From NCBI GenBank assembly GCA_958295805.1, contig OY282373.1:1583001-1647000 (forward strand): 64,000 bases of DNA. The letters run 5' to 3'. Both the position numbers and the translations under genes were made by a program. This DNA comes from an uncultured Nitrospirales bacterium. GTDB lineage: Bacteria; Nitrospirota; Nitrospiria; Nitrospirales; UBA8639. Below, one piece after another: positions 2,272 to 18,730 of this stretch (position 1 is the first letter of the stretch; each line of letters opens with the position of its first letter). The notes under the pieces are model-generated. The model saw nothing but the letters and a program-made list of their open reading frames with translations, searched no databases and was not told where the DNA came from.

Positions 2272-2346
2272 CTCGTGACCTCCTGACCACTAGGGGGGAG
2301 GGCCAGGGAGCGGGTGATGGTTATTAACGAAAGGAGAACATTGACG

Positions 2347-3309
2347 ATGAGCATAGTGATAACCTTGGTGTGCGTGATTTTGAGTTTGGGGTGGGGCGGG
2401 GTGGGGATGGCCCAGGACCGGCTGCCGGAGATTCTGATGGATCAATATCTGTTGGAAGGGAGCGAGGCACTGGAGAAGGGGGAGCCGGACCGGGCGAAGC
2501 GGGCGTTTGAGAAGATCGAAACCCTGGAGGTCAAGCCGCCGCCGGCGTTTTTGTTTGCGGAAGGCCAACTGGTGGTGGCACAGGGCAGGGTGGTGGCGGA
2601 CCGCCAGCGACAAGAGCAGTTCGGGGAGCACCTCCGGATGGTGTCCATCCCGGGCGGCAGCTTCAAGATGGGCTGCACCAGCGAGCAGCGTGAGTGTAAT
2701 GACAACGAATACCCGGTGCATGAGGTGCAGGTGCGGGCCTTTGAGATCGGACGGTATGAGGTGACGCAGGCGCTGTGGGAGGCCGTCATGGGCGGAAATC
2801 CGAGTCACTTCAAGAACTGCGCGCAGTGTCCCGTGGAGAGCGTGACCTGGGATGCCGTCCAGCGGTTTCTCAAGAGACTGAACATGCAGACGGGGTCTCA
2901 GTATCGATTGCCGACGGAGGCGGAGTGGGAGTATGCGGCGCGCGGGGGGCAGGAGAGTCGGGGCTACCGGTATGCCGGGAGTAACGACCCGGGTGTGGTG
3001 GCGTGGTATGAGGGGAATAGCGGGAAGGAGACCACTCCGGTGGGGCAGAAGGGTGCGAATGAGTTGGGGCTGTACGACATGAGCGGGAACGTGAGGGAGT
3101 GGGTGCAGGACTGCTGGCATGGCTCGTATAAGGGTGCCCCATCTGATGGGCGGGCGTGGGAGTCGGGGGACTGTTCCAGTCGCGTGCTGCGTGGCGGGTC
3201 CTGGCTCATCTCTCCGAGGTACCTCCGCTCCGCGTATCGCCTCGGGCTCACCACCGGGTTTCGGAGCAGCGAGTACGGGTTCCGTCTCGCTCGGACGCTC
3301 ACCCCGTGA
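2347..3309 (+). CDS. DGR target protein B: secreted FGE-fold protein with VR2
   Basis: A 320-residue protein with a signal peptide at 1-22 (cleavage after GMA), a shortened helical linker, and an FGE-like domain from about residue 97 (SIPGGSFKMGC, YRLPTEAEWEYAARGG, LYDMSGNVREW), ending in a variable tail after LRGGSW. ATG 2347 is preceded by AAAGGAGAAC and matches the starts of its paralogues. Cysteines in CTSEQRECN, CAQCPVE, DCWH and DCS suggest disulfides outside the cell. This target has the VR framework closest to the extant TR, together with E and the third domain of F, and is followed by a strong hairpin. Surface display and ligand binding are inferred from DGR targets in general. Confidence 0.9.
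   Translation: MSIVITLVCVILSLGWGGVGMAQDRLPEILMDQYLLEGSEALEKGEPDRAKRAFEKIETLEVKPPPAFLFAEGQLVVAQGRVVADRQRQEQFGEHLRMVSIPGGSFKMGCTSEQRECNDNEYPVHEVQVRAFEIGRYEVTQALWEAVMGGNPSHFKNCAQCPVESVTWDAVQRFLKRLNMQTGSQYRLPTEAEWEYAARGGQESRGYRYAGSNDPGVVAWYEGNSGKETTPVGQKGANELGLYDMSGNVREWVQDCWHGSYKGAPSDGRAWESGDCSSRVLRGGSWLISPRYLRSAYRLGLTTGFRSSEYGFRLARTLTP
3181..3300 (+). repeat. DGR variable repeat VR2
   Basis: 120 bp. Hand alignment to TR gives 19 changes at the 30 TR adenines and only 3 at the 90 other positions (GCC to TCC, the third base of one AAT codon, and the C/G IMH difference). The first 24 bp are identical to TR. This is the classic adenine-specific signature. Confidence 0.95.
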
Positions 3310-3339: not shown

Positions 3340-3362
3340 CCAGGGGGGCCGTGCCCCCCTGG
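3340..3362 (+). promoter_or_regulatory. GC-rich hairpin downstream of VR2
   Basis: A perfect 10-bp inverted repeat with a 3-nt loop (CCAGGGGGGC cgt GCCCCCCTGG), 40 bp after the VR. Hairpins or cruciforms just 3' of the VR assist target recognition in the Bordetella phage DGR. It could instead be part of a terminator, although no U-tract follows. The same hairpin recurs at 8463-8485. Confidence 0.6.
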
Positions 3363-3447
3363 TTCGGATTTTTGGGAGCCTGCCTTGGCCTGAGGTGGCG
3401 TGAAGCAAGCCAAACGATGAGGACCGGCGCCATCCCGAGAGACGAGC

Positions 3448-3633
3448 ATGATCCATGAACAACACCGGCACGCCCGCCGACCTTGCCCCGTCGGAAGCCC
3501 CCACCCCCCGATGGTGCCCGGGTCACGGGTCCGGCCCTGGAAACCCACGATCGCTTCCTTCTCCGGCTGCCCGAACCGACGGCCTTACGGGACCGCCGGG
3601 CGCGTCCGTGAACATCCGGGGGCGGTCATGATA
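3448..3633 (+). pseudogene. Remnant of a second avd-RT-TR cassette
   Basis: 3448-3569 closely matches the start of the avd gene (8571-8690), beginning atgatccatga. At about 3570 it switches directly to sequence matching the region just downstream of the TR (about 10178-10240, gaaccgacggccttacggg). The rest of avd, the whole RT and the TR are missing. The gap from the stop of target B to this start is 139 bp, the same as from target E to the intact avd, so the whole module was duplicated and later lost its core by deletion. No functional product is expected. Confidence 0.82.
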
Positions 3634-3640
3634 AACGAGG

Positions 3641-4600
3641 GGCCGGGATGTTCCTGACATTCCGACTTCCCACTGGCATTCCGGCCACCCCTTTGTCATT
3701 CGCGTGTCAACGGGAATCCAGTGTCTTTTCCCCCTCCGCAACGTGCTGGGGGCCGGGCGCCCTGGGGCCTTCCGCTGGATTCCCGCTAAAGCCTGCGGGA
3801 ATGACAGAAGGGCAAGCCAGCGGGCATGACCGGAGGGGAACATCGGGCATGACTGGAGGGGAACATCGGGCATGACCGGAGGGAAGGTCGGGCATGACCG
3901 GAGGGAAGGTCGAGCATGACCGGAGCAAGGCAGGGAAGGACCGGGAGAGGGGCCGGGATGTTCCTGACATTCCGACTTCCCACTGGCATTCCGGCCCCCT
4001 CATTGTCATTCCCGTGTCAACGGGAATCCAGTGTCTTTTCCCCCTCCGCAACGTGCTGGGGGCCGGGCGCCCTGGGGCCTTCCGCTGGATTCCCGCTAAA
4101 GCCTGCGGGAATGACAGAAGGGGAAGCCAGCGGGCATGACCGGAGGGGAACATCGGGCATGACCGGAGGGGAATGTCGGGCATGACCGGAGGGAGGGTCG
4201 GGCATGACCGGAGGGAAGGTCGGGCATGACTGGAGGGAGGCAGGGAAGGACAGAGCAAGGCAGGGAAGGACCGGGAGAGGGGCCGGGATGTTCCTGACAT
4301 TCCGACTTCCCACTGGCATTCCGGCCCCCCCTTTGTCATTCCCGTGTCAACGGAAATCCAGTGTCTTTTCCCCCTCCGCAACGTGCTGGGGCCGGGCGTC
4401 CTGGGGCCTTCCGCTGGATTCCCGCTAAAGACTGCGGGAATGACAGAAGGGGAAGACTGCGGGAATGACAGGAGGGGAAGGTCGGGCATGACCGGAGGGC
4501 AAGCCAGCGAGCATGACAGAAGGGCAAGCCAGCGGGCATGACAGGAGGGGAACGTCGGGCATGACCGGGCGGTCGTGATGAACGGGGGGTCGGTGCCGCT
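3641..4600 (+). repeat. Three tandem 310-330-bp repeat units with internal 20-25-bp subrepeats
   Basis: Units start at 3641, 3951 and 4281, each with ggccgggatgttcctgacat. Each contains an imperfect palindrome (cattcccgtgtcaacgggaat ... gattcccgctaaagcctgcgggaatgac) followed by short direct repeats of the type gggcatgaccggaggggaac. Subrepeat number differs between units, which accounts for the length variation. No gene is visible here. Long ORFs in either strand are repeat translations. Confidence 0.88.
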
Positions 4601-4657
4601 TCTGTCTTGCTCCGGCGGGAGCGGGTGATGGTTATTAACGACGGGAGGACGTTGACG

Positions 4658-5779
4658 ATGAGCATAGTAATGACCTTGGTGTGTGTGCTTTTGAGTCTGG
4701 GGTGGAGCGGGGCGGGGGTGGCTCAGGACCTGCCGCCGGAGATTATGATGGATCAATATCTGTTGGAAGGGACCGAGGCACTGAAAAAGGGGGAGGTGGA
4801 CCGGGCGAGGCGGGCGTTTGAGAAGATCGAAGCCCTGGAGGTCGAGCCGCCGCCGGTGTTTTTATTTACGTACGGCCGACTGCTGGTGGAACAGGGCAAG
4901 ACGGAGGCAGAGGTGCGCAAGGGCACAGGCTTGCTCAAACGCTTTATTGTCAAGGAGGCCAAAGGGTCCGAACGGTACACCTCGACGTTGAAACTGTTGT
5001 CGCGGGCGTCGGAGCACCTGGCCTGTCAGGCGGACGCGCACTGTCGGGCGGAGGCGGAGCGACAGCGCCAGCGACAAGAGCTGATCCGAGACGGCTTCAA
5101 GATGGTCTCCATCTCGGGCGGCAGCTTCAGCATGGGCTGCACCCGTGAGCAGCGTGATTGTCATGATGACCAATGCCCGATGCACAAGGTGCAGGTGCCG
5201 GCTTTTCAGATCGGACAGTATGAGGTGACGCAAGATTTGTGGGAGGCCGTCATGGGCGGGAACCCGAGTTCCCACAACTGCGCGCAGTGTCCCGTGCAGA
5301 ACGTGAGTTGGAGAGACGTCCAACAGTTTCTCGATGCACTGAATGTTCAGACGAGGGGCCAGTATCGATTGCCGACGGAAGCGGAGTGGGAGTATGCGGC
5401 GCGCGGCGGGCGGCAGAGTCAGGGGTACAAGTATGCCGGGAGTGACACCCCGGGTCTGGTGGCGTGGTATGAGATGAGCAGAGGGAATACGAGCCATCGG
5501 GTAGGGCAGAAGGAACCCAATGAACTGGGGCTGTACGACATGAGCGGCAACGTGCTTGAGTGGGTGGAAGACTGCTGGCATGAGGACTATACGGGCGCCC
5601 CGGCGAATGGGAAGGCGTGGGATTTAGAGAACTCAGGGGACTGTTCCCGTCGCGTGGTGCGGGGCGGGTCCTGGAACCACAGCGGCCCGGGGGACCTCCG
5701 CGTCGCGTATCGCGACTGGTACACCACCGGGAGTCGGCTTCCCTTCCACGGGTTCCGGCTGGCTCGGACGCTTCCGTGA
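4658..5779 (+). CDS. DGR target protein C: secreted FGE-fold protein with VR3
   Basis: A 373-residue protein. Signal peptide at 1-22 (cleavage after GVA), TPR-like helical region at about 25-125 (DRARRAFEKIEALEVEPPPVFL), FGE-like domain from about residue 148 (SISGGSFSMGC, YRLPTEAEWEYAARGG, LYDMSGNVLEW), and a VR after VRGGSW. ATG 4658 follows GGGAGG with 9-nt spacing. It is a near duplicate of the broken gene at 5946-7150. The variable tail carries one extra codon compared with TR. Confidence 0.88.
   Translation: MSIVMTLVCVLLSLGWSGAGVAQDLPPEIMMDQYLLEGTEALKKGEVDRARRAFEKIEALEVEPPPVFLFTYGRLLVEQGKTEAEVRKGTGLLKRFIVKEAKGSERYTSTLKLLSRASEHLACQADAHCRAEAERQRQRQELIRDGFKMVSISGGSFSMGCTREQRDCHDDQCPMHKVQVPAFQIGQYEVTQDLWEAVMGGNPSSHNCAQCPVQNVSWRDVQQFLDALNVQTRGQYRLPTEAEWEYAARGGRQSQGYKYAGSDTPGLVAWYEMSRGNTSHRVGQKEPNELGLYDMSGNVLEWVEDCWHEDYTGAPANGKAWDLENSGDCSRRVVRGGSWNHSGPGDLRVAYRDWYTTGSRLPFHGFRLARTLP
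5651..5773 (+). repeat. DGR variable repeat VR3
   Basis: 123 bp, one codon longer than TR (an inserted GGC near the start of the variable zone). The variable codons are identical to VR4, so neither has been rewritten since the gene duplication. The 3' recognition end has CGGCTGGCTCGG instead of CGTCTCGCTCGG. Confidence 0.85.
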
Positions 5780-5945
5780 GTCGTGACGGCCTGACCTCCT
5801 GCGGGAGGCCAGGGGCCGTGCCCCCCGGGTTCAATTGTTTGAAGTCATTCGCGGGGCGTCCCCGGGCGTGGGACAATCGGCTTTCAACGGGGCGGGGAGG
5901 GCCAGGGAGCGGGTGATGGTTATTAACGAAAGGAGGACAGTGACG

Positions 5946-7150
5946 ATGAGCATAGTAATGACCTTGGTGTGCGTGATTTTGAGTCTGGGGTGGGGCGGGA
6001 CGGGGATGGCCCAGGACCTGCCGCCGGAGATTGTGCTGGATCAATATCTGTTGGAAGGGACCGAGGCCCTGGACGAGGGGAAGCCGGACCGGGCGAGACG
6101 GGCGTTTGAGAAGATCGAAGCCCTGAAGGTCGAGCCGCCGCCGGCGTTTTTGTTTACGTATGGCCAACTGCTGGTGGAACAGGGCAAGACGGAGGCAGAG
6201 GTGCGCAAGGGCACAGGCTTGCTCAAACGATTTATTGTTAAGGAGGCCAAATGGTCCGAACGGTACACCGCGACATTGAAACTGTTGTCGCGGGCCGCGG
6301 GCGAGATCGAACGTCTGGGCTGTCAGGAAGACGCGTACTGTCGGGCGGAGGCGGAGCGCCGACGGGCGGAGCGCCAACGGACGGAGGCAGAGCGCCAACG
6401 GACGGAGGCAGAGCGCCAACGGGCGGAGGCGGAGCGCCAGCGACAAGCTCTGATCCGAGACGGCCTCCGGGTGGTCCCCATCCCGGGCGGCAGCTTCAAG
6501 ATGTGCTGCATCCGTGAGCAGCGTGATTGTCATGATGACCGATGCACGAGGTGCAGGTGCAGGTGCGGGCTTTTCAGATCGGACAGTATGAGGTGACGCA
6601 AGATTTGTGGGCGGCCGTCATGGGCAAGAACCCGAGTCACTTCGAGAACTGCGCGCAGTGTCCCGTGCAGAACGTGAGTTGGAGAGACGTCCAACAGTTT
6701 CTCAATGCACTGAATGTTCAGACGAGGGGCCAGTATCGATTGCCGACGGAAGCGGAGTGGGAGTATGCGGCGCGCGGCGGGCGGCAGAGTCAGGGGTACA
6801 AGTATGCCGGGAGTGACACCCCGGGTCTGGTGGCGTGGTATGAGATGAGCAGAGGGAATATGAGCCATCGGGTAGGGCAGAAGGAACCCAATGAACTGGG
6901 GCTGTACGACATGAGCGGCAACGTGCTTGAGTGGGTGGAAGACTGCTGGCATGAGGACTATACGGGCGCCCTGGCGAATGGGAAGGCGTGGGATTTAGAG
7001 AACTCAGGGGACTGTTCCCGTCGCGTGGTGCGGGGCGGGTCCTGGAACCACAGCGGCCCGGGGGACCTCCGCGTCGCGTATCGCGACTGGTACACCACCG
7101 GGAGTCGGCTTCCCTTCCACGGGTTCCGTCTGGCCCGGACGCTTCCGTGA
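5946..7150 (+). pseudogene. DGR target D: frameshifted FGE-fold gene with VR4
   Basis: The first part (from ATG 5946) encodes a signal peptide, a helical region, a Glu/Arg-rich repeat (four RQRxEAE-like copies at 6355-6440) and PGGSFKMCC, then shifts frame near 6540. The remainder (6542-7150) continues the FGE-like domain in another frame. Compared with gene C, about 7 bp were lost and a 6-bp gcaggt was duplicated, net minus one. The conserved MGCTREQ is also MCCIREQ. The 3' half can be translated from ATG 6542 but would lack a signal peptide. Probably non-functional. Confidence 0.8.
7022..7144 (+). repeat. DGR variable repeat VR4
   Basis: The variable zone is identical to VR3. The only differences noticed lie in the 3' recognition end (CGTCTGGCC against CGGCTGGCT). 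It sits in the frameshifted gene D. Confidence 0.85.
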
Positions 7151-7316
7151 GTCGTGACGGCCTGACCTCCTGCGGGAGGCCAGGGGCCGTGCCCCCCGGG
7201 TTCAATTGTTTGAAGTCATGCGCGGGGCGTCCCCGGGCGTGGGACAATCGGCTTTCAACGGGGCGGGGAGGGCCAGGGAGCGGCTGATGGTGACGAACGA
7301 AAGGAGAACGTTGACG

Positions 7317-8432
7317 ATGAGCATAGTAATGGCCTTGGTGTGCGTGCTTTTGAGTTTGGGGTGGGGCGGGGTGGGGGTGGCTCAGGACCTGCCGCCGGAG
7401 ATTGTGCTGGATCAATATTGGTTGGAAGGGACAGAGGCCCTGAAAAAGGGGGAGGTGGACCGGGCGAGGCGGGCGTTTGAGAAGATCGAAGCCCTGGAGG
7501 TCGAGCCGCCGCCGGTGTTTTTATTTACGTATGGCCGACTGCTGGTGGAACAGGGCAGGACGGAGGCGGAGGTGCGCAAGGGCACAGGCTTGCTCAAACG
7601 CTTTATTGTCAAGGAGGCCAAAGGGTCCGAACGGTACACGGCGACGTTGAAACTGTTATCGCGGGCGGCGGGCGAGATCGAACGTCTGGGCTGTCAGGAA
7701 GACGCGTACTGTCGGGCGGCGGCGGAGCGCCAGCGACAACAGCAGATCCGAGACCGTTTCAAGATGGTCTCCATCCCGGGCGGCAGGTTCAGCATGGGCT
7801 GCACCCGGGAGCAGGGTAAGTGTTATGACGACGAGAACCCGGTGCATGAGGTGCAGGTGAACGACTTTGAGATGGGGCAGTATGAGGTGACGCAGGAGGC
7901 GTGGGCGGCCGTCATGGGCGCGAACCCGAGTGACCACAAGTGCGCGCAGTGTCCCGTGGAGAACGTGAGTTGGGCTGATGTCCAGCGGTTTCTTAAGAGA
8001 CTGAACGAGCAGACGGGGCCCCAGTATCGGTTGCCGACGGAGGCGGAGTGGGAGTATGCGGCGCGCGGGGGTCAGCAGAGTCGGGGGTATCAGTATGCCG
8101 GGAGTGACACCCCGGGTGTGGTGGCGTGGTATCGGGAGAATAGCGGGGGGAAGACCCATCCGGTGGGGCAGATGGAGCCGAATGAGTTGGGGGTGTACGA
8201 CATGAGCGGGAACGTGTGGGAGTGGGTGCAGGACTGCGGGCATGGCTCGTATAAGGGCGCCCCATCTGATGGGCGGGCATGGGAGTCGGGGGCCTGTTCC
8301 GATCGCGTGCTGCGTGGCGGGTCCTGGGCCGTCTCACCGAGGTACCTCCGCTCCGCGGTTCGCATCAGGGACACCTCCGGGATTCGGGACAACGAGAGCG
8401 GGTTCCGTCTCGCTCGGACGCTCACCCCGTGA
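7317..8432 (+). CDS. DGR target protein E: secreted FGE-fold protein with VR5, next to avd-RT-TR
   Basis: A 371-residue protein. Signal peptide at 1-22 (cleavage after GVA), TPR-like helices at about 25-125, FGE-like domain from about residue 150 (SIPGGRFSMGC, YRLPTEAEWEYAARGG, VYDMSGNVWEW) and a VR after LRGGSW. ATG 7317 follows AAAGGAGAAC, with the same leader as the other targets. This is the proximal target of the intact DGR core: avd begins about 145 bp downstream and the hairpin at 8463 lies between them. Its VR framework matches TR closely, so it is a likely active target. Confidence 0.9.
   Translation: MSIVMALVCVLLSLGWGGVGVAQDLPPEIVLDQYWLEGTEALKKGEVDRARRAFEKIEALEVEPPPVFLFTYGRLLVEQGRTEAEVRKGTGLLKRFIVKEAKGSERYTATLKLLSRAAGEIERLGCQEDAYCRAAAERQRQQQIRDRFKMVSIPGGRFSMGCTREQGKCYDDENPVHEVQVNDFEMGQYEVTQEAWAAVMGANPSDHKCAQCPVENVSWADVQRFLKRLNEQTGPQYRLPTEAEWEYAARGGQQSRGYQYAGSDTPGVVAWYRENSGGKTHPVGQMEPNELGVYDMSGNVWEWVQDCGHGSYKGAPSDGRAWESGACSDRVLRGGSWAVSPRYLRSAVRIRDTSGIRDNESGFRLARTLTP
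8304..8423 (+). repeat. DGR variable repeat VR5
   Basis: 120 bp. By hand alignment, 16 changes at TR adenines and 3 elsewhere. The non-A changes are the same as in VR2 (GCC to TCC, AAT third base to G, and the C/G IMH difference). The first 24 bp are identical to TR. Confidence 0.95.
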
Positions 8433-8462: not shown

Positions 8463-8485
8463 CCAGGGGGGCCGTGCCCCCCTGG
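8463..8485 (+). promoter_or_regulatory. GC-rich hairpin downstream of VR5
   Basis: The same 10-bp stem and CGT loop as at 3340-3362, at the same distance (about 40 bp) from the end of the VR. Probable DGR target-recognition structure, alternatively a transcription attenuation site between target E and avd. Confidence 0.6.
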
Positions 8486-8577: not shown

Positions 8578-8904
8578 ATGAGACAGGCCGGCACGCCCGC
8601 AGACGTTGCCCCGTCGGAGGCCCCCACCCCCGATGGTGCCCGGGTCACGGGTCCGGCCCTGGACGCCCACTATCGCTTCCTTCTCTGGCTGGTGCCCGCG
8701 GTGGAACGCTTCCCTCGCAGTCAGAAGTTCCTGCTGGGTGACCGCATTCAACGCACCGCGCTGGACGTGCTGGAATGTCTGCTTGAGGCCACCTACACCC
8801 GGCAGCGGGGCCACCACCTCACCCGAGCCAACCTGGGCATCGAGAAACTGCGCGTCCTCATCCGGCTGGCTCACGACCTGCGTGCTGGATGGGCGGCGGT
8901 ATGA
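8578..8904 (+). CDS. avd: Avd accessory protein of the DGR (C-terminus out of frame)
   Basis: Avd proteins are small basic four-helix-bundle proteins that bind the DGR reverse transcriptase and template RNA. Residues 30-100 match the bAvd pattern: YRFLLWLVPAVERFPRSQKF, then ALDVLECLLEATYTR and LRVLIRLAHDLR. The in-frame ORF stops at 8902-8904 after 108 residues. The expected final helix (RRYEHAARCLDETGRKIGAW) is present in the next frame up to 8995, so a one-base gain or two-base loss occurred near 8877-8886. This could be a sequencing error, a recoded shift or a real mutation. Start ATG 8578. An ATG at 8571 is in another frame. Confidence 0.82.
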   Translation: MRQAGTPADVAPSEAPTPDGARVTGPALDAHYRFLLWLVPAVERFPRSQKFLLGDRIQRTALDVLECLLEATYTRQRGHHLTRANLGIEKLRVLIRLAHDLRAGWAAV

Positions 8905-8995
8905 ACACGCGGCCCGGTGCCTGGACGAGACCGGCCGGAAGATCGGGGCTTGGAGCAAGACGCACCGTGCCAAAGACGCATCACGATCTGTTTGA
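8880..8995 (+). other. Out-of-frame C-terminal helix of Avd
   Basis: The +1 frame after LAHDLR reads LDGRRYEHAARCLDETGRKIGAWSK and ends at TGA 8993-8995, the usual end of an Avd protein. Restoring the frame would give about 139 residues, a normal Avd length, overlapping the RT start by about 29 nt. Seen in sequence; the family comparison is from memory. Confidence 0.75.
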
Positions 8996-10181
8996 CGGCT
9001 TGGCCACGTTCTCCGCGTTGCGGGCCGCGGCCCTGCGCGCGGCTCGGGGCAAGCGGACCACGCCCGGGGCTGCGGCGTTTCTGGCCAACCTGGAACCGGA
9101 GGTGCTGCGCCTGGAGCGGGAATTGATCGGCGGGCGCTACCGGCCGGGCCGATACACGACCCTTGAAGTGTTCGACCCGACGCATCGGATCGTGTCCGCG
9201 GCGCCCTTCCGGGATCGGGTGGTGCATCACGCGTTCTGCGCGGTGGTGGAGCCGTTGTTCGAGCGGGGCTTCATCTTCGACAGCTACGCCAACCGCCTGG
9301 GCAAGGGCACGCATCGGGCCGTGGCGCGCTATGAGCAGTTCAGGGATCGTTTCCGCCACGTGCTGCGGTGTGACGTGTACCGCTATTTCCCGGCCATTGA
9401 CCACGCGATCTTGAAGCGCGACTTGCGGCGGCGGCTCGCCTGTCCCCGCACCCTGGCGTTGGCGGACCGGATTATTGATGGGGCGAATCCCCAGGAGCCG
9501 GTCTGTCTTCATTATCCGGGCGACGACCTGTTCACGCCCTTCGAGCGTCGGCGCGGCCTGCCCATCGGCAACCTGACCAGTCAGTTTTTTGCCAACGTCT
9601 ATCTGGACGGTCTGGACCACTTCTGCAAAGAGGTCTTACGGGCGAAGGGCTATCTGCGGTACGTGGATGATTTTGCGCTGTTTCACGACGACCCGGCCCA
9701 GCTTGCGGCGTGGCGGCACCGGCTGGCCGAGTTCTTGGCCGGTCGCCGGGTGCGGCTGCACCCGCGCAAGACCCGGATTGTGGCGACGGCGGCCCCGGCG
9801 GAATTTCTGGGCTTTGTGCTGCTGGCGGGCGGCTGGCGGCGGCTGCCGGAAGCGAATGTGCGCCGTTTCCGCAACCGCCTGCGGGGGCTGCGGGCGCGCT
9901 GGGGCCACGGCCGGGTGACACAAGACGAGGTTGACCGCCGGGTGGGGGCGTGGGTGGCTCACGCCGCTCACGCGCACACGTGGCGCTTGCGCCACGCGAT
10001 CTTTCGGGACGGGGTTCTCCCCTCCCGGGAGCCTGACCGTCCCCCTGTGTACGCGTGCTGCGTGGCGGGTCCTGGAACAACAAACCGAGGAACCTCCGCG
10101 CCGCGAATCGCAACAGGAACACCACCGGGAATCGGAACAACAATAACGGGTTCCGTCTCGCTCGCACGCTCCGTTGCCTGA
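8967..10181 (+). CDS. DGR reverse transcriptase
   Basis: An error-prone reverse transcriptase that copies TR RNA into mutated cDNA for transfer to VRs. Family features are RGKRTTPG near the N-terminus, SAAPFRDRVVHHA, ERGFIFDSYANRLGKGTH, DVYRYFPAIDH (first catalytic Asp), RRGLPIGNLTSQFFANVYLD (the IGxxxSQ motif diagnostic of DGR RTs) and YLRYVDDF (catalytic Asp pair). GTG 8967 is chosen because family members start a few residues before LFD and the upstream residues would overlap the avd C-terminal helix. ATG 8889 or 8901 (ATGA overlap with the avd stop) are alternatives. The RT core ends near 10040, and the frame then reads through the TR to TGA 10179-10181. Confidence 0.93.
   Translation: MPKTHHDLFDGLATFSALRAAALRAARGKRTTPGAAAFLANLEPEVLRLERELIGGRYRPGRYTTLEVFDPTHRIVSAAPFRDRVVHHAFCAVVEPLFERGFIFDSYANRLGKGTHRAVARYEQFRDRFRHVLRCDVYRYFPAIDHAILKRDLRRRLACPRTLALADRIIDGANPQEPVCLHYPGDDLFTPFERRRGLPIGNLTSQFFANVYLDGLDHFCKEVLRAKGYLRYVDDFALFHDDPAQLAAWRHRLAEFLAGRRVRLHPRKTRIVATAAPAEFLGFVLLAGGWRRLPEANVRRFRNRLRGLRARWGHGRVTQDEVDRRVGAWVAHAAHAHTWRLRHAIFRDGVLPSREPDRPPVYACCVAGPGTTNRGTSAPRIATGTPPGIGTTITGSVSLARSVA
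10052..10171 (+). repeat. DGR template repeat (TR)
   Basis: 120 bp carrying 30 adenines, 29 of them in a 72-bp core built from AAC, AAT, AAA, AGG and ACC codons. In the VR frame it would read LRGGSWNNKPRNLRAANRN and so on, matching the tails of the targets. It ends CTCGCTCGCACGCTC (IMH*), one base from the CTCGCTCGGACGCTC IMH of the closest VRs. It lies immediately downstream of the RT core, inside the 3' extension of the RT frame. Confidence 0.95.
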
Positions 10182-10700
10182 ACCGACGGCCTTACGGGGC
10201 CGCCGGGTGCGTCCGTGAGCGTCCAGGGGCGGTCATGATGAACGCCAAGCCGGTGCCGCTCCTGCCCCGCTCCGGCGGGGGAGGGGTGCCGGACTCCCCA
10301 TCCGGTCAGGCGGCCCGCAGACCACGGCTCCAGCCCGCTCCTGTAAAGACGCCGGATTCCCGCGGGCGTGGGAAGGATAGGAGTCCCCCCCATTGTCATT
10401 CCCGTGTCAACGGGAATCCAGGGGAAAGGACGAAACGCCTCCGGCAGGTCTGCACACCGCGACGGCCTTTTGGCTTCCCGCGGGCGTGGGAAGGACGTCC
10501 TGGCTGGCTCCGCTCGTCTCGTGCCTCACCCTGGATTCCCGCTCCCCGATAACAAATGTCGGGGACAGGCTTCGCGGGAATGACAGGAGGGGAACGTTGG
10601 GGATGACCGGGCGGTCATGATGAACGGGGGGCGGGGCTGCTCTTGTCTCGCTCCGGCGGGGGAGTGCTTGATTGTTACTAACGACGGGAGGAGGTTGACG
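10182..10700 (+). other. Non-coding spacer with dispersed repeats
   Basis: Begins with the segment also found at the remnant cassette (gaaccgacggccttacgggg). It then carries cattcccgtgtcaacgggaat palindromes and a 56-bp element at 10531-10586 that recurs inverted at 17163-17218. It ends with the leader shared by all targets. No credible gene seen. Confidence 0.7.
10531..10586 (+). repeat. 56-bp dispersed repeat (copy 1)
   Basis: Starts ctggattcccgctccccg and ends cttcgcgggaatgacag. It is itself an imperfect palindrome. An exact reverse-complement copy is at 17163-17218, bracketing target genes F, G and H and the dehydrogenase. Confidence 0.9.
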
Positions 10701-13118
10701 ATGAGCATAGTGATGACCCTGGTGTGCGTGCTTCTGAGTCTGGTGTGGGGTGGGGCGGGGATGGCCCAGGACCGGCCGCCTGAGATTGTGATGAATTCCT
10801 CTTCGGTGGAAGCGACCGTGGCGCCGGAGAAGGGGCAGGCGAACCAGGCCGACGCCGAGCGACGACAAGCCGGGCTCACCTCGCTCTTGGGCCACCTCCG
10901 GATGGTCTTCGTCCCGGGCAGCAGCTTCAGGATGGGCTGCACCCGGGAGCAGCGTGGTTGTGGTGAAAGTGAGAAACCGGTGCATGAGGTGCAGGTAAAC
11001 GACTTTGAGATCGGGCAGTATGAGGTGACGCAGGAGCTGTGGGAGGCCGTCATGGGCGAGAACCCGAGTCACTTCGGGAACTGCGCGCAGTGTCCCGTGG
11101 AGAACGTGAGTTGGGAGGACGTCCGGCGGTTTCTCAAGAAACTGAACGTGCAGACGGAGGACCAGTATCGATTGCCGACGGAGGCGGAATGGGAGTATGC
11201 CGCCAGAGGCGGCCAGCAGAGTCGGGGATACCCGTATGCCGGGAGTGACACCTTGGGGTTAGTGGCGTGGTATTGGGAGAATACCGGGGGGAGGACCCAT
11301 CCGGTGGGGCAGAAGGAGCCCAATGAGTTGGGGCTGTACGACATGAGCGGGAACGTGGCGGAGTGGGTGCAAGACTGCTGGCATGACTCCTATACGGGCG
11401 CCCCGGCTGATGGGCGGGCATGGGAGTCAGAGCACTCAGAGAAGTGTTCCTTGCGCGCGCTGCGGGGCGGGGCCGGGCTCAGCGACCTGAGGTTCCTCCT
11501 CGCCGCGTTCCGCGACGGGAGCACCTCCGGGAACCGGCTCACCTTCGTCGGGTTTCGTCTGGCTCGGACGCTCACCCCGGTGGAAGCAACCGCGACGCCG
11601 GACACGGGGCAGGCAGACCGGGCCGATGCCGAGCGACGCCGACAAGTCAGGCTCAACCAGCTCCCGGAGCGCCTCCCGATGGTCTCCATCCCGGGCGGCA
11701 GCTTCAGCATGGGCTGCACCCGGGAGCAGGGTCATTGTAATCGTGACCAATACCCGGTACATGAGGTGCAGGTGGGGGCTTTTGAGATCGGGCAGTATGA
11801 GGTGACACAGGAGGTGTGGGAGGCCGTCATGGGCGAGAACCCGAGTCGATTCAGTGACTGCGCGCAGTGTCCCGTGGAGTCTGTCAGTTTCGGTGACGTC
11901 CGGCGGTTTCTCGATGAATTGAATGCCCGGACGGGAGGCGGGTATCGATTGCCGACGGAGGCGGAGTGGGAGTATGCGGCGCGCGGAGGGCAGCAGAGTC
12001 GAGGATACCGGTATGCCGGGAGCAATACCCTGGATGCGGTGGCGTGGTATGGGGAGAATAGCGGGGGGAAGACCCATCGGGTGGGGCAGAAGGAGCCCAA
12101 TGAACTGGGGCTGTACGACATGAGCGGGAACGTGAAAGAGTGGGTGCAAGACTGCTGGCATGACTCGTATAGGGACGCTCCGGCGGATGGGCGGGCGTGG
12201 GAGTCGGAGGACTGTTCCCAGCGCGTGCTGCGGGGCGGGTTCTGGCTCACCTTCCCGGCGACCCTCAAAGCCGCGTACCGCGACTGGTTCTCCCCCGGGG
12301 TCCGGGGTGCCGTCATCGGGTTCCGGGTGGCTCGGACTCCGGTGGAAGGGACCGCGGCGCCGGAGAAGGGGCAGGCAGACCGGGCCGCCGCCAAGCGACG
12401 ACCAGCCGGGCTCACCCCGCTCTTGGTCCCCCTCCCGATGGTCTCCATCCCGGGCGGCAGGTTCAGCATGGGCTGCACCCGGGAGCAGGGTAAGTGTTAT
12501 GACGACGAGAACCCGGTGCATGAGGTGCAGGTGAACGACTTTGAGATGGGGCAGTATGAGGTGACGCAGGCGCTGTGGGAGGCCGTCATGGGCGAGAACC
12601 CGAGTTGGTTCATGGACTGCGCGCAGTGTCCCGTGGAGCAGGTGAGTTGGGATGACATCCAGGTGTTCCTCAAGAGACTGAACGAGCAGACGGGGTCTCA
12701 GTATCGGTTGCCGACGGAGGCGGAGTGGGAGTATGCGGCGCGCGGGGGCCAGCAGAGTCGGGGCTACCAGTATGCCGGGAGTAACGACCCGGGTGTGGTG
12801 GCGTGGTATGAGGAGAATACCGGGGAGAAGACCCATCCGGTGGGGCAGAAGGAGCCGAATGAGCTAGGGCTGTACGACATGAGCGGGAACGTGTGGGAGT
12901 GGGTGCAGGACTGCGGGCATGACTCGTATAGGGGCGCTCCGTCTGATGGGCGGGCGTGGGAGTCAGAGAACTCAGGGGACTGTTCCAAGCGCGTGCTGCG
13001 TGGCGGGTCCTGGATATTCACTCCGAGGTACCTCCGCGCCGCGTACCGCTTCAGGACCACCCCCGGGAATCGGAACATCGACGTCGGGGTCCGTCTCGCT
13101 CGGACGCTCACCCCGTGA
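10701..13118 (+). CDS. DGR target protein F: three FGE-fold domains, three variable repeats
   Basis: An 805-residue protein with a signal peptide at 1-22 and three successive FGE-like domains at about 68-291, 327-547 and 580-803. Each has its own PGGxF-MGC start, YRLPTEAEWEYAARGG and LYDMSGNV motifs, and each ends in a VR. Short linkers (EKGQANQADAERRQAG-like) separate the domains. The typical TPR-like region of targets A-E is missing. ATG 10701 follows GGGAGGAGG. The third VR (VR8) is close to TR and could be active. VR6 and VR7 have diverged, with VR6 losing GGSW (GGAG). Three lectin-like heads on one chain suggest a multivalent binder, which is inference. Confidence 0.9.
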   Translation: MSIVMTLVCVLLSLVWGGAGMAQDRPPEIVMNSSSVEATVAPEKGQANQADAERRQAGLTSLLGHLRMVFVPGSSFRMGCTREQRGCGESEKPVHEVQVNDFEIGQYEVTQELWEAVMGENPSHFGNCAQCPVENVSWEDVRRFLKKLNVQTEDQYRLPTEAEWEYAARGGQQSRGYPYAGSDTLGLVAWYWENTGGRTHPVGQKEPNELGLYDMSGNVAEWVQDCWHDSYTGAPADGRAWESEHSEKCSLRALRGGAGLSDLRFLLAAFRDGSTSGNRLTFVGFRLARTLTPVEATATPDTGQADRADAERRRQVRLNQLPERLPMVSIPGGSFSMGCTREQGHCNRDQYPVHEVQVGAFEIGQYEVTQEVWEAVMGENPSRFSDCAQCPVESVSFGDVRRFLDELNARTGGGYRLPTEAEWEYAARGGQQSRGYRYAGSNTLDAVAWYGENSGGKTHRVGQKEPNELGLYDMSGNVKEWVQDCWHDSYRDAPADGRAWESEDCSQRVLRGGFWLTFPATLKAAYRDWFSPGVRGAVIGFRVARTPVEGTAAPEKGQADRAAAKRRPAGLTPLLVPLPMVSIPGGRFSMGCTREQGKCYDDENPVHEVQVNDFEMGQYEVTQALWEAVMGENPSWFMDCAQCPVEQVSWDDIQVFLKRLNEQTGSQYRLPTEAEWEYAARGGQQSRGYQYAGSNDPGVVAWYEENTGEKTHPVGQKEPNELGLYDMSGNVWEWVQDCGHDSYRGAPSDGRAWESENSGDCSKRVLRGGSWIFTPRYLRAAYRFRTTPGNRNIDVGVRLARTLTP
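11454..11573 (+). repeat. Variable repeat VR6 (internal)
   Basis: Colinear with TR over 120 bp, but the framework GGGTCCTGG is GGGGCCGGG and further non-A changes are present. Probably no longer a homing target. Confidence 0.8.
12222..12341 (+). repeat. Variable repeat VR7 (internal)
   Basis: The 5' framework matches TR except GGGTTCTGG. The end has drifted (GTGGCTCGGACTCCG) and CGC is replaced by AAA at one codon. An older, probably inactive VR in domain 2 of protein F. Confidence 0.8.
12990..13109 (+). repeat. Variable repeat VR8
   Basis: 120 bp. By hand, 15 changes at TR adenines and 5 at other positions including the C/G IMH difference. The first 24 bp and the last 20 bp (except IMH) equal TR. 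A likely active target at the C-terminus of protein F. Confidence 0.92.
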
Positions 13119-13192
13119 CTCGTGACCTCCTGACCACTGGGGGGAGGGACAGGGAGCGGTTGATGGTTACTAACGAAAGGAGAACATCGACG

Positions 13193-14074
13193 ATGAGCAC
13201 AGTGATGACCTTGGTGTGCGTGCTTCTGAGTCTGGGGTGGGGCGGGACGGGGATGGCCCAGGACCGGCCGCCGGAGATTGTGATGGATTCCTCTGCGGTG
13301 GAAGGGAGCGCGGCGTCGGACACGGGGCAGGTAAACCGGGCCGACGCCGAGCGAGGACAAGCCGGGCTCACCTCGCTCTTGGGCCACCTCAAGATGGTCT
13401 CCATCCCGGGCGGCAGCTTCATGATGGGCTGTACGGCGCGCCGTGAGTGTGATGATGATAACCCGGAATACTCGGAGCATGAGGTGCAGGTGAACGACTT
13501 TGAGATCGGACAGTATGAGGTGACACAGGAGGTGTGGGAGGCCGTCATGGGCGAGAACCCGAGTCGATTCAGTGACTGCGCGCAGTGTCCCGTGGAGAAC
13601 GTGAGTTGGGAGGACGTTCAGCGGTTTCTCGATGAATTGAATGCCCGGACGGGAGGCGGGTATCGGCTGCCGACGGAGGCGGAGTGGGAGTATGCGGCGC
13701 GCGGAGGGCAGCAGAGTCGGGTGTCCCAATATGCCGGGAGTGACGACCCGGGTGCGGTGGGGTGGTATGAGGCGAATAGCGGAAAGAAGACCCATCCGGT
13801 GGGGCAGAAGGAGCCCAATGAGTTGGGGGTGTACGACATGAACGGGAACGTGTGGGAGTTGGTGGAAAACTGTGGGCATTGCACTGACACGGGAGCGCCG
13901 AGTGATGGGCTGGCATGGGAATCAGGGAACTGTTCCGAGCGCGTGCTGCGGGGCGGGTCCTGGAACCTCAGTCCGGAGTACTTCCTCTCCGAGCTTCGCG
14001 TCAGGAACACCACTTGGCTTCGGGACCCCAGCCTCGGGTTTCGTGTAGCTCGGACGCACTCGTTCTCTCCTTAA
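13193..14074 (+). CDS. DGR target protein G: secreted FGE-fold protein with VR9
   Basis: A 293-residue protein: signal peptide at 1-22, a short DSSAVEGSAASDTGQ-type linker and one FGE-like domain at about 69-290 (SIPGGSFMMGC, YRLPTEAEWEYAARGG, VYDMNGNVWEL). ATG 13193 is preceded by AAAGGAGAACATC. No TPR-like region. The VR follows LRGGSW, and the tail ends ARTHSFSP rather than ARTLTP, so its 3' recognition end has diverged. Closely related to the first domain of protein H, suggesting local duplication. Confidence 0.88.
   Translation: MSTVMTLVCVLLSLGWGGTGMAQDRPPEIVMDSSAVEGSAASDTGQVNRADAERGQAGLTSLLGHLKMVSIPGGSFMMGCTARRECDDDNPEYSEHEVQVNDFEIGQYEVTQEVWEAVMGENPSRFSDCAQCPVENVSWEDVQRFLDELNARTGGGYRLPTEAEWEYAARGGQQSRVSQYAGSDDPGAVGWYEANSGKKTHPVGQKEPNELGVYDMNGNVWELVENCGHCTDTGAPSDGLAWESGNCSERVLRGGSWNLSPEYFLSELRVRNTTWLRDPSLGFRVARTHSFSP
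13940..14059 (+). repeat. Variable repeat VR9
   Basis: Alignable to TR across 120 bp, but AGG is GAG, CTC is TTC, and the end reads GTAGCTCGGACGCAC. Adenine-directed differences are still visible. Probably inactive. Confidence 0.78.
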
Positions 14075-14152
14075 GAAAGGGCCTGGGGCAACCGGCTTGC
14101 AAACGGGTGAGGGCGGAAGCCGTTGATTGTTACCAACGAAAGGAGACCGTCT

Positions 14153-15805
14153 ATGGTGAGCACAGTCGTGAGTTTGGTGTGCGTGCTTTTGAGTTGGGGG
14201 TGGGGTGGGACGGGGATGGCCCAGGACCGGCCGCCGGAGATTGTGATGGATTCCTCTGCGGTGGAAGGGAGCACGGCGCCGGACACGGGGCAGGTAAACC
14301 TGGCCGACGCCGAGCGAGGACAAGCCGGGCTCATGCCGCTCTTGGGCCACCTCAAGATGGTCTCCATCCCGGGCGGCAGCTTCATGATGGGCTGTACGGC
14401 GCGCCGTGAGTGTGATGATGATAACCCGGAATACCCGGAGCATGAGGTGCAGGTGAACGACTTTGAGATCGGGCAGTATGAGGTGACGCAGGCGCTGTGG
14501 GAGGCCGTCATGGGCGAGAACCCGAGTCGGTTCCCGGACTGCGCGCAGTGTCCCGTGGAACTCGTCAGTTGGGCGGACGTTCAGGGGTTTCTCGATGAAT
14601 TAAATGCCCGGACGGGAGGCGGGTATCGGTTGCCGACGGAGGCGGAGTGGGAGTATGCGGCCCGCGGGGGCCAGAAGAGTCAGTACTCGTCTGCCGACCC
14701 CACGGGTCTGTGGGGGTGGGAGATGACTTCGCGGCCTCATCCGGTCGGTCAGAAGCAGCCCAATGAGTTGGGGCTGTACGACATTCAGGGGAACGTGTGG
14801 GAGTGGGTGGAAGACTGCCGGCATGATTCCTATACGGGCGCCCCGGCTGATGGGCGGGCGTGGGTATCAGGGGACTGTTCCGAGCGCGTGCTGCGGGACA
14901 TAAACCGTCACGTAAGCTTGGCGGGCTACACCGAGTCGCGCCGCGTATCGTCGACCTGGGAGCGAAGTTCCGACGTCGGGTTTCGTGTGGCTCTGACGCT
15001 CACTCCGGTGGAAGCGACCGCGGCGCCGGACACGGGGCAGGCGGACCGGGCCGCCGCCGAGCGAGGACAAGCCGGGCTCACCCCGCTCTTGCCCCCTCTC
15101 CGGATGGTCTTCGTCCCGGGCGGCAGGTTCAGGATGGGCTGCACCCGTGAGCAGCGTGAGTGTGCGAAGACCGAATACCCGGTGCATGAGGTGCAGGTGA
15201 ACGACTTTGAGATCGGGCAGTATGAGGTGACGCAGGCGCTGTGGATGGCCGTCATGTTCGGCATCCACCCCGAGAAGCCGAGTTACTTCACGAACGACGG
15301 GGAAGTGCCGTGTCCCGTGGAGTGTCCCGTGGAGAGAGTCAGTTGGGAGGACGTTCAGAAGTTTCTTGATGAATTGAATGCCCGGACGGGAGGCGGGTAT
15401 CGATTGCCGACGGAGGCGGAGTGGGAGTATGCGGCGCGCGGGGGGCAGCAGAGTCGGGGGTACGAGTATGCCGGGAGTCACACCCCTGGTGCCGTGGCGT
15501 GGTATAGGCGGAATAGCAGGGAGCATTCCCATCCGGTGGGGCAGAAGCAGCCCAATGAGTTGGGGCTGTACGACATGAGCGGGAACGTGACGGAGTGGGT
15601 GGAAGATTGCTGGCATGACTCCTATACGGGCGCCCCGGCTGTTGGGCGGGCGTGGGTATCAGGGGACTGTTCCAAGCGCGTGGTCCGGGGCGGGACCTGG
15701 TTCTACTTCCCGAAGACCCTCCGCGCCGCGAGCCGCGCCAGGCTTCCCACCGACGTCCGGGTCAGCAGCGGCGGGTTTCGTCTGGCTCGGAGGCTCACCC
15801 CGTGA
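14153..15805 (+). CDS. DGR target protein H: two FGE-fold domains, two variable repeats
   Basis: A 550-residue protein: signal peptide (WGWGGTGMA, cleavage near residue 22), an FGE-like domain at about 68-283 ending in the degenerate VR10, a linker, and a second FGE-like domain at about 317-548 ending in VR11. ATG 14153 follows AAAGGAGACCGTCT. Domain 1 has a shortened loop before the QGNVWEW motif, and its tail lacks RGGSW (LRDINRH). Domain 2 contains a repeated CPVECPVE. Last gene of the target array. The convergent dehydrogenase ends 51 bp downstream. Confidence 0.87.
   Translation: MVSTVVSLVCVLLSWGWGGTGMAQDRPPEIVMDSSAVEGSTAPDTGQVNLADAERGQAGLMPLLGHLKMVSIPGGSFMMGCTARRECDDDNPEYPEHEVQVNDFEIGQYEVTQALWEAVMGENPSRFPDCAQCPVELVSWADVQGFLDELNARTGGGYRLPTEAEWEYAARGGQKSQYSSADPTGLWGWEMTSRPHPVGQKQPNELGLYDIQGNVWEWVEDCRHDSYTGAPADGRAWVSGDCSERVLRDINRHVSLAGYTESRRVSSTWERSSDVGFRVALTLTPVEATAAPDTGQADRAAAERGQAGLTPLLPPLRMVFVPGGRFRMGCTREQRECAKTEYPVHEVQVNDFEIGQYEVTQALWMAVMFGIHPEKPSYFTNDGEVPCPVECPVERVSWEDVQKFLDELNARTGGGYRLPTEAEWEYAARGGQQSRGYEYAGSHTPGAVAWYRRNSREHSHPVGQKQPNELGLYDMSGNVTEWVEDCWHDSYTGAPAVGRAWVSGDCSKRVVRGGTWFYFPKTLRAASRARLPTDVRVSSGGFRLARRLTP
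14885..15001 (+). repeat. Degenerate variable repeat VR10
   Basis: 117 bp. The first 15 bases and the last third align to TR, but the GGGTCCTGG framework is lost and one codon is missing. Best read as a retired VR. Confidence 0.6.
15677..15796 (+). repeat. Variable repeat VR11
   Basis: 120 bp, starting CGCGTGGTCCGGGGCGGGACCTGG. Most TR adenine codons are replaced (TTC, TAC, TTC, ACC, AGC, GCC, CTT). The end reads CTGGCTCGGAGGCTC, two changes from the best IMH. Confidence 0.82.
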
Positions 15806-17278: not shown

Positions 17279-18296
17279 ATTCACAAACGAAGTGCAACAC
17301 CTTGCTAAGGTGTTGTCATGGGCACCCACTCTCACCACCTCACCCTGGAAGACCGATGTGACTTGGCCCGTCTACATGCCGACGGGCGCTCGCTCCGGCA
17401 CATCGCGGCAGCTCTGGATCGCCCGCCATCAACCGTGGCTCGCGAACTGAAGCGCAATCGCTCCCGCACCCAGGACTCCCAGCCCGGCTCTGCCGAGCAG
17501 ACCCGCGCTCGCCGGTGGCGTGGTGCCAAACTGGCCCGCGATGCCCTCCTCCGCACCACAGTCCTCACCCACCTCCAACAGGGCTGGACCTCCGAGCAGG
17601 TGGCCGGGCGCCTCGCCCGCGACGCCGGGCGGCCGGTTATCTCCCACGAAACCATCTACCGGTTCCTCTACGCCCAGATCGCCCGAACGAAAACTTATGC
17701 CTGGCGCCACTATCTGCCCCGAGCCAAAGCCACCCGCGGCCGCCGCCGCACACGCCGCAGCCCCGCCGCCTTGATGGCTCACCGCCGCCCTCTCGCCGAG
17801 CGTCCCGCCGCAGCGGCCGACCGCCAGACCCCCGGCCATTGGGAAGCCGATCTGATGCTCTTCCGCACCTATGGCCAAGCCGGCCTCACTCTCCACGAGC
17901 GCACCTCCCGCCTCCTCCTTGCCGTATGCCCACCGGGCAAGGCCGTCGCCCCTATCGCCCACGCCCTGACTCACCGCCTCCCGCCCGTGCCCCCTCACGG
18001 CCGCCAGACTGTCACCTTCGACCACGGCACGGAATTCGCCTCTCATCACTACCTCCATGCCCGCGGCATCGAGACCCTCTTCTGTGACCGTTACGCCCCC
18101 TGGCAAAAAGGCGGCGTCGAGAACGCCATCGGCCGCCTGCGCCGCACCCGGCCGCGTAAAACCGACTTGGCCACCCTGTCTGACCAGCGGGTTCATCATT
18201 TGGTTCACGCTTACAACCACACCCCGCGGAAATGCTTCGGGTATGCCAGTCCCGCGGAGATTTTTATCCACCAAGTGGTGCACTTGAAATGTGAAT
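17279..18296 (+). mobile_element. IS30-family insertion sequence
   Basis: About 1.0 kb. The left end (17279, attcacaaacgaagtgcaac) and the right end (18271-18296, reverse complement attcacatttcaagtgcacc) form imperfect inverted repeats. The transposase fills the interior. It sits inside dispersed repeat DNA. A target duplication could not be defined with confidence. Confidence 0.8.
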
Positions 18297-18730
18297 CCAC
18301 ATCCAGAGGCTGTATTTTTGCAGATGGAGGAAAAAGCAAAAATGCTGGATTCCCGATGAAAGATGTCGGGAATGACAAGAGGGGAACCGGAATGGCAAGG
18401 GGGAACCGGAATGACAAGAGGGAAACCGGAATGCCAAGAGGGGAGCCGGAATGCCAAGGGGGAACCGGAATGCCAAGAGGGGAGCCGGAATGTCAAGGGG
18501 GAGTCGGAATGCCAAGGGGGAGCCGGAATGTCAAGGGGGAACCGGAATGCCAAGGGGAAACCGGAATGCCAAGGGAGGAGCCGGAATGTCAAGGGGGAGT
18601 CGGAATGCCAAGGGGGAGCCGGAATGTCAAGGGGGAGCCGGAATGCCAAGGGGGAGTCGGAATGTCAGTAGCATCCCGGCCTCGCTCTGTCATTCCCGCG
18701 TGCGCGGGAATAACGGAATGGTGGATTTGA
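17318..18730 (+). CDS. IS30-family transposase with read-through C-terminal extension
   Basis: Residues 1-60 hold an HTH (LTLEDRCDLARL, RHIAAALDRPPSTVARELKRN). The DDE integrase core has GHWEADL (first Asp), TVTFDHGTEF (second Asp) and QKGGVENAIGRLRR (Glu). The family-typical end is near HLKCEST at about residue 328, at the right inverted repeat. Here no stop follows, and the frame continues about 140 codons into short repeats (GMPRGEPECQG-like) to a stop at 18728-18730. The extension is probably an accident of insertion. ATG 17318 lies just inside the left repeat. Confidence 0.88.
   Translation: MGTHSHHLTLEDRCDLARLHADGRSLRHIAAALDRPPSTVARELKRNRSRTQDSQPGSAEQTRARRWRGAKLARDALLRTTVLTHLQQGWTSEQVAGRLARDAGRPVISHETIYRFLYAQIARTKTYAWRHYLPRAKATRGRRRTRRSPAALMAHRRPLAERPAAAADRQTPGHWEADLMLFRTYGQAGLTLHERTSRLLLAVCPPGKAVAPIAHALTHRLPPVPPHGRQTVTFDHGTEFASHHYLHARGIETLFCDRYAPWQKGGVENAIGRLRRTRPRKTDLATLSDQRVHHLVHAYNHTPRKCFGYASPAEIFIHQVVHLKCESTSRGCIFADGGKSKNAGFPMKDVGNDKRGTGMARGNRNDKRETGMPRGEPECQGGTGMPRGEPECQGGVGMPRGSRNVKGEPECQGETGMPREEPECQGGVGMPRGSRNVKGEPECQGGVGMSVASRPRSVIPACAGITEWWI
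18344..18690 (+). repeat. About 19-bp tandem repeat array flanked by palindromes
   Basis: Roughly fifteen imperfect copies of ggaatgccaagggggagcc, with variants tcaag, ggaacc and gtc. It begins after gattcccgatgaaagatgtcgggaatgac and ends before cattcccgcgtgcgcgggaat. There are no unique spacers, so it is not a CRISPR. Confidence 0.88.

Follow-up and report, generated by a model that had tools for sequence, protein, structure and literature searches.

The window analyzed here, 64,000 nucleotides of a contig from an uncultured Nitrospirales bacterium, contains a cluster of target genes arranged around an avd gene, a reverse transcriptase (RT) gene and a template repeat (TR). A whole-genome search placed all relatives of the TR in the single-contig 2.9-Mb genome within this one cluster, which spans 15 kb and holds eleven variable repeats (VRs) and one TR; no second TR was found elsewhere in the genome. 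The features, by position in the window, are as follows.

1057-2271, + strand: target gene T1 (FGE domain), with VR1 at 2143-2262
2314-3309, + strand: target gene T2 (FGE domain), with VR2; matches TvpA
3181-3300, + strand: VR2, one of the two most recently written targets
3340-3362, + strand: hairpin of 10 bp 3′ of VR2, CCAGGGGGGC(CGT)GCCCCCCTGG
3373-3640, + strand: relic of a second diversity-generating retroelement (DGR) cassette, with the 5′ part of an avd joined to a decayed copy of the Sp RNA
4607-5779, + strand: target gene T3, with VR3 at 5651-5773 (old)
5835-7150, + strand: target gene T4, a copy of T3, with VR4 at 7022-7144; reading frame split at about 6550
7206-8432, + strand: target gene T5, with VR5
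8304-8423, + strand: VR5, the other of the two most recently written targets
8463-8485, + strand: hairpin of 10 bp 3′ of VR5, sequence and spacing as at VR2
8578-8904, + strand: avd (accessory variability determinant), PF22296 bAvd above cut-off
8889-10181, + strand: reverse transcriptase (RVT_1), conserved part to about 10050
10052-10171, + strand: TR, with 30 adenines and, in the frame of the VRs, 11 AAY codons
10164-10171, + strand: IMH*, the 3′ end of the TR, GCACGCTC; C10165 (C114 of the TR) differs from every cleanly aligned VR
10172-10308, + strand: structured Sp-like RNA 3′ of the TR; covariation in 26 loci, covariance-model match of 111 bits
10617-13118, + strand: target gene T6, with three FGE domains and VR6 at 11454-11573, VR7 at 12222-12341 and VR8
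12990-13109, + strand: VR8, without a hairpin; written later than VR6 and VR7, earlier than VR2 and VR5
13160-14074, + strand: target gene T9, with VR9 at 13940-14059 (old)
14123-15805, + strand: two-domain target gene, with VR10 at about 14885-15001 (degenerate) and VR11 at 15677-15796 (old)

Each of the eleven VRs ends an FGE-sulfatase domain; these domains belong to eight genes lying between 1057 and 15805. PF03781 was found in all five target proteins scanned, the best solved match of T2 by sequence is TvpA (T. denticola variable protein 1; 2y3c), and the N-terminal sequences make the target proteins look secreted. The start of T9 was set from the repeat of the gene family; the longest open reading frame there begins at 12956. 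The frame split in T4 reflects either a frameshift or a sequencing error. VR4 has the same pattern at its adenine sites as VR3, and their host genes are near-identical copies; thus neither VR has been rewritten since the duplication. Fragments of the RNA that follows the TR lie at 4567-4627 and 10609-10668, directly upstream of T3 and T6, suggesting that targets were duplicated along with pieces of the cassette. Positions 3613-4575, between T2 and T3, hold direct repeats about 310-330 nt long that match, in inverted orientation, an array at 18342-18688 made up of 19-20-nt repeats. An open reading frame at 17318-18730, judged by eye to resemble an IS30-type transposase, adjoins the cluster, and at 1-222 five copies of a 42-nt tandem repeat stand in register ahead of the open reading frame at 228.

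In the cassette itself, avd also matches NF033474 (DivGenRetAVD) at E 1e-18, which is under the curated cut-off of that model. The closest solved structure to the RT is 8ub7 (E 1.7e-41), which we take to be the reverse transcriptase of the DGR of Bordetella phage BPP-1, its record title being only “Reverse transcriptase,” and motifs IGNLTSQ and YVDD are seen in the translation. The RT frame is open and continues through the TR in a frame other than that of the VRs. We considered whether the TR encodes an RT C terminus, but among relatives the RT stops before, inside or after the TR, and in varying frames, so this overlap looks incidental. Besides its 30 A, the TR contains 41 C, 34 G and 15 T, and only one of its codons (AAA) can become a stop. 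The cluster has a DGR-type RT, an Avd (an accessory protein common, although not universal, in DGRs), adenine differences between TR and VR, an IMH that differs from IMH*, and VRs at the 3′ ends of targets assigned to the C-type lectin fold by sequence-based family and the TvpA match. It is almost certainly a chromosomal DGR. DGRs are a known kind of system, and as a DGR, the locus is ordinary.

The first-pass annotation had counted by hand an adenine-specific excess of substitutions in three of the VRs and read it as the mark of mutagenic retrohoming. Gapless alignment to the TR returned exactly the same counts: VR2 differs at 19 of 30 adenines and 3 of 90 other bases, VR5 at 16 and 3, and VR8 at 15 and 5 (Fisher test of A versus non-A sites, p = 1.0e-11, 3.0e-9 and 2.4e-7, respectively). 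The first 24 bases of all three are identical to those of the TR. Pooled over these VRs, adenines changed to T 28 times, to G 13 times and to C 9 times, and 48 of the 50 changes fall at codon positions 1 and 2 (26 and 22, with 2 at position 3). A115 is unchanged in all 8 tabulated VRs, leaving 29 adenines mutable in practice. C114, in turn, is replaced by G in all VRs that align cleanly and is therefore a fixed distinction between TR and target rather than noise. The other VRs are biased toward adenines as well (24 of 30 versus 17 of 90 in VR7; 20 of 30 versus 12 of 90 in VR6), with 9-17 non-adenine changes each. The retrohoming interpretation is supported by the presence of avd, a DGR RT and a TR, by an adenine-specific asymmetry confined to the VRs, and by the same gene order in 25 or more relatives. 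A rival reading, in which duplicated genes diverged in the ordinary way with their binding residues under positive selection and the TR is another degenerate copy, would accord with a tandem target family that is 9-23% divergent in the domain core and with variable residues at a binding face. The contrast between A and non-A sites across many loci refutes it, however, and it is highly improbable given that the changes cluster on the TR's adenines (19 of 30 versus 3 of 90), that VR2 and VR5 differ at 17 of 29 adenine sites but at 0 of 81 other VR sites, that the TR lies outside any target gene and behind a DGR RT, and that relatives have the same asymmetry with 0 non-adenine changes.

The VRs differ in age. 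The TR alleles T12 and C108 occur in VR2, VR5 and VR8 only, the other tabulated VRs having G12 and either G or A at 108, which supports the earlier choice of these three. Within the three, VR2 and VR5 are the most recently written, and VR8 was written before them. Identity of VR2 and VR5 at all 81 non-adenine VR sites stands against 35 differences in the 300-nt domain core (p = 3e-4), and no other pair of VRs has such low non-adenine divergence relative to the core. VR8 differs from VR2 and VR5 at 5 of 81 non-adenine VR sites and at 27-29 of 300 in the flank, and it carries private non-adenine changes. In this cluster, the 10-bp GC hairpin is found at VR2 and VR5 only, exactly at +40. A hairpin 3′ of the VR is needed for efficient homing in BPP-1 (PMC3240598; PMC12875486). 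Among relatives, stems of at least 7 bp accompany 64% of VRs, versus 7% of random windows; a hairpin is not a requirement for all VRs, being absent at VR8 and at the VRs of one relative (L015). The first-pass annotation had gone further and named VR2, VR5 and VR8 the best candidates for currently active targets. For VR2 and VR5 this stands in the sense of most recent writing (0 of 81 versus 35 of 300, hairpin intact); for VR8, whose 5 of 81 is not different from its flank and which has private changes and no hairpin, the case is weaker. The words “currently active” find only partial support. T93 of the present TR occurs in no tabulated VR.

This mismatch bears on present activity. A94 or A95 is mutated in VR2, VR5 and VR8, so the last write of each ran through position 93, and the absence of T93 from all tabulated VRs means that none of them was last written by the TR in its present form. 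VR2 and VR5 have the common alleles T49 and G93, and the G49 of the present TR is absent from both; the template that last wrote them thus differed from the present TR. Either the TR changed after the last write or another TR wrote VR2 and VR5. The relic at 3373-3640, directly after VR2, bears on the second possibility. About 200 nt of it share homology with the beginning of avd and the sequence upstream of it, and its decayed Sp RNA scores 41 bits with covariance model R1; the rest of avd, the RT and the TR are deleted. This lost cassette may have been the source of the writing in VR2 and VR5. It is rather unlikely, in our judgment, that the whole locus is a dead DGR that records past retrohoming, with VR2 and VR5 last written by the second, now deleted cassette. 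The disagreement of T93, and of T49 for VR2 and VR5, with the present TR, the avd and Sp relic beside VR2 with its RT and TR deleted, and the several targets that are old or broken would all be expected of such a locus, but avd, RT, TR, Sp helix and the hairpins of VR2 and VR5 are intact, and the RT frame is open. In many relatives, the best VRs have zero non-adenine differences outside the IMH (comparison set, one genome per species); by this comparison, the present locus looks less recently active than is typical. From the sequence of this one genome, retrohoming activity today is a possibility.

The region downstream of the TR, aligned from 26 loci and folded with RNAalifold, contains a conserved RNA with two covarying stem-loops, and 22 of the 31 predicted pairs have changed on both sides at least once. 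The last 8 nt of the TR (GCACGCUC) form a helix with GAGCGU[C/U]C, which lies some 45 nt further 3′ and is followed by a conserved A. In the present locus, GAGCGTCCA at 10217-10225 pairs with 10171-10164, and A10225 is left unpaired as a candidate cDNA-priming adenine. Within this helix, the TR base neighboring the adenine side is paired in 26 of 26 loci, the equivalent of base 114 in 0 of 26, and the bases that follow in 22-26 of 26; the candidate priming adenine is unpaired in all 26. A covariance model added 13 further copies of the RNA, spread over 12 related loci. A search of Rfam gave no match. A Spirochaetia-labelled MAG (L054) has copies of the RNA at 10617-10780 (+) and 8177-8338 (-) near one RT match, and no VR was found near these copies.

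The constancy of G at base 114 in the VRs, together with the unmutated A115, implies that transfer stops between 108 and 114, and the position of the helix coincides with this limit, which was deduced independently from the VRs. A10225 is a likely candidate for the cDNA primer. The equivalent of A115 has changed to G in a VR of a same-genus locus (L013, 5534-5657 versus 2430-2553) and also in L033, a rare exception to its usual constancy.

The base that is never paired in the TR is paired in the target. At the equivalent of position 114, two bases from the unpaired adenine, the VR base can pair with the RNA in 26 of 26 loci (25 Watson-Crick, 1 wobble), and the TR base in 0 of 26. The held-out RNA copies agree: in 13 of 13, the TR has C or T opposite an RNA C and is mismatched, and the three of these loci in which a VR could be detected (L028, L032 and L034; the L032 RNA reads AUCCA at the key site) all have the pairing G. 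With U at the key base of the RNA, the VR base is A at four loci and, at one, a G that forms a wobble. The RT tree shows three changes of the Sp base from C to U; the VR base followed from G to A in two of these cases and remained G (wobble) in the third, so that there are only two independent both-sided changes, and the proposed guide step turns on a single base pair. We tentatively propose, with slightly less than even confidence, that in DGRs of this lineage and in BPP-1 the Sp segment before the priming adenine is a target guide, complementary to the IMH of the VR and kept mismatched to IMH* of the TR at one base, by which the retroelement may distinguish target from template. Such an RNA-guided pairing rule is possibly new.

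A different account, which we consider possible but rather doubtful, is that the difference at position 114 is kept by arginine coding in the VR and by RNA architecture in the TR, namely an internal loop beside the primer adenine, the match to Sp being incidental. Indeed, the VR codon at the key base is CGN or AGR (Arg) in 26 of 26 loci, and in the 16 with AGR, coding limits the VR base to A or G. Coding is not the full explanation, however, because in the CGN loci, where the base is synonymous and therefore free, the VR is complementary to Sp in 10 of 10, including 3 with CGA and an Sp U. Moreover, the pattern recurs in BPP-1, which has a different target: C in the TR, A in the VR and U in Sp.

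In BPP-1, Sp 47-56 pairs with VR 118-127 through nine Watson-Crick pairs and one wobble, and the TR is mismatched at 120 in the same register. The segment ends at A56, the published priming adenine. In both BPP-1 and the present locus, then, the Sp strand before the adenine is complementary to the VR and mismatched to the TR two bases away; the BPP-1 match alone has a p of 0.04-0.09 when Sp is shuffled and any position is allowed. When duplexes were sought automatically in 12 phage DGRs and several cellular ones, the results were noisy and for the most part negative. Across the phage DGRs, the VR was favored over the TR only in BPP-1 and YPCBV-1 (perhaps also Dulem 37), and masking the key base added FP_Lagaffe. 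The masked search recovered the helix where it was expected, at 57-62 nt, in some 15 loci of the present family, all with the TR unpaired and the VR paired, and missed it elsewhere. By eye, the rule fits in part at the G111 loci L076 and L077, whose RTs are 45-50% identical. We rejected a general Sp-VR rule for all DGRs, as most other phage DGRs yielded no clear signal in these searches.

The following sequence of events best explains the locus. From a TR-Sp RNA, the RT-Avd complex copies the TR portion into cDNA, with misincorporation at template adenines, and the cDNA replaces the homologous VR of the FGE-fold target genes. The Asn codons at what is putatively the binding face are thereby randomized, chiefly at positions 1 and 2. 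Synthesis would begin at the unpaired adenine, by analogy with BPP-1, and C114 and A115 would then lie beyond the start and not be copied. On the guide reading, the RNA strand before the adenine, joined to the cDNA, would match the target IMH and have one mismatch to the TR, making the RNA-cDNA chimera a near-continuous complement of the VR and not of the TR. The mismatch would protect the template from rewriting and help to keep the flow of information one-way, from TR to VR. Alternatively, the primer RNA might itself be copied into the VR and so impose the match, but the unpaired A faces C or A in the VR, which argues that at least this A is not copied.

Relatives come from many phyla and share the order target-avd-RT-TR, the TR in most starting within about 100 nt of the conserved end of the RT. 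A match was found in 11 of 118 related genomes. Most genomes of the same genus lack the system, and only two in the genus, besides the present one, have a match (one of them, G009, by a partial RT match). In the tree, the RTs of L011-L047, from Nitrospirota, Binatota, Latescibacterota and Acidobacteriota, are interleaved within a single supported clade, which suggests that the cassette has been transferred horizontally.

Three known systems invite comparison. First, the BPP-1 system (mtd/avd/brt) has an avd, an RT, a TR, adenine-specific transfer and an IMH/IMH* difference (PMC3240598; PMC12875486), as well as a hairpin 3′ of the VR and an Sp RNA with a priming adenine, here a candidate. Its order is avd-TR-RT with one target, whereas here TR and Sp follow the RT and there are 11 VRs; its IMH difference comprises several bases, here one; and its hairpin has a GRNA loop at 4-34 nt, in contrast to a 3-nt loop 40 nt downstream here. 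Second, TvpA of Treponema denticola (2y3c) is likewise a target of the FGE-type C-type lectin fold with a VR at its C terminus. The present targets look secreted rather than like lipoproteins, and they are encoded by several genes, one with three domains, with a VR ending each domain. Third, Thiohalocapsa PB-PSB1 has cellular DGRs that likewise combine several VRs and several targets, with VRs of unequal activity and, at one locus, FGE targets; it differs in having 9 loci, 21 VRs and conflict-system proteins, compared with one 11-VR cluster of stand-alone proteins here (PMC10907252).

As a DGR, the locus adds a cluster of eleven VRs and one TR, with copies of different ages, in a genus represented by Nitrospira-labelled MAGs. 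The observation on the RNA, that one base is unpaired in every template and paired in every target, matters more than the DGR itself. The step from cDNA to VR was still described as incompletely understood in a 2026 paper (PMC12875486). The guide reading, if true, would explain why information is transferred in one direction only, and it could allow DGRs to be directed at genes of choice, by changing a short stretch of the RNA and the IMH along with it.
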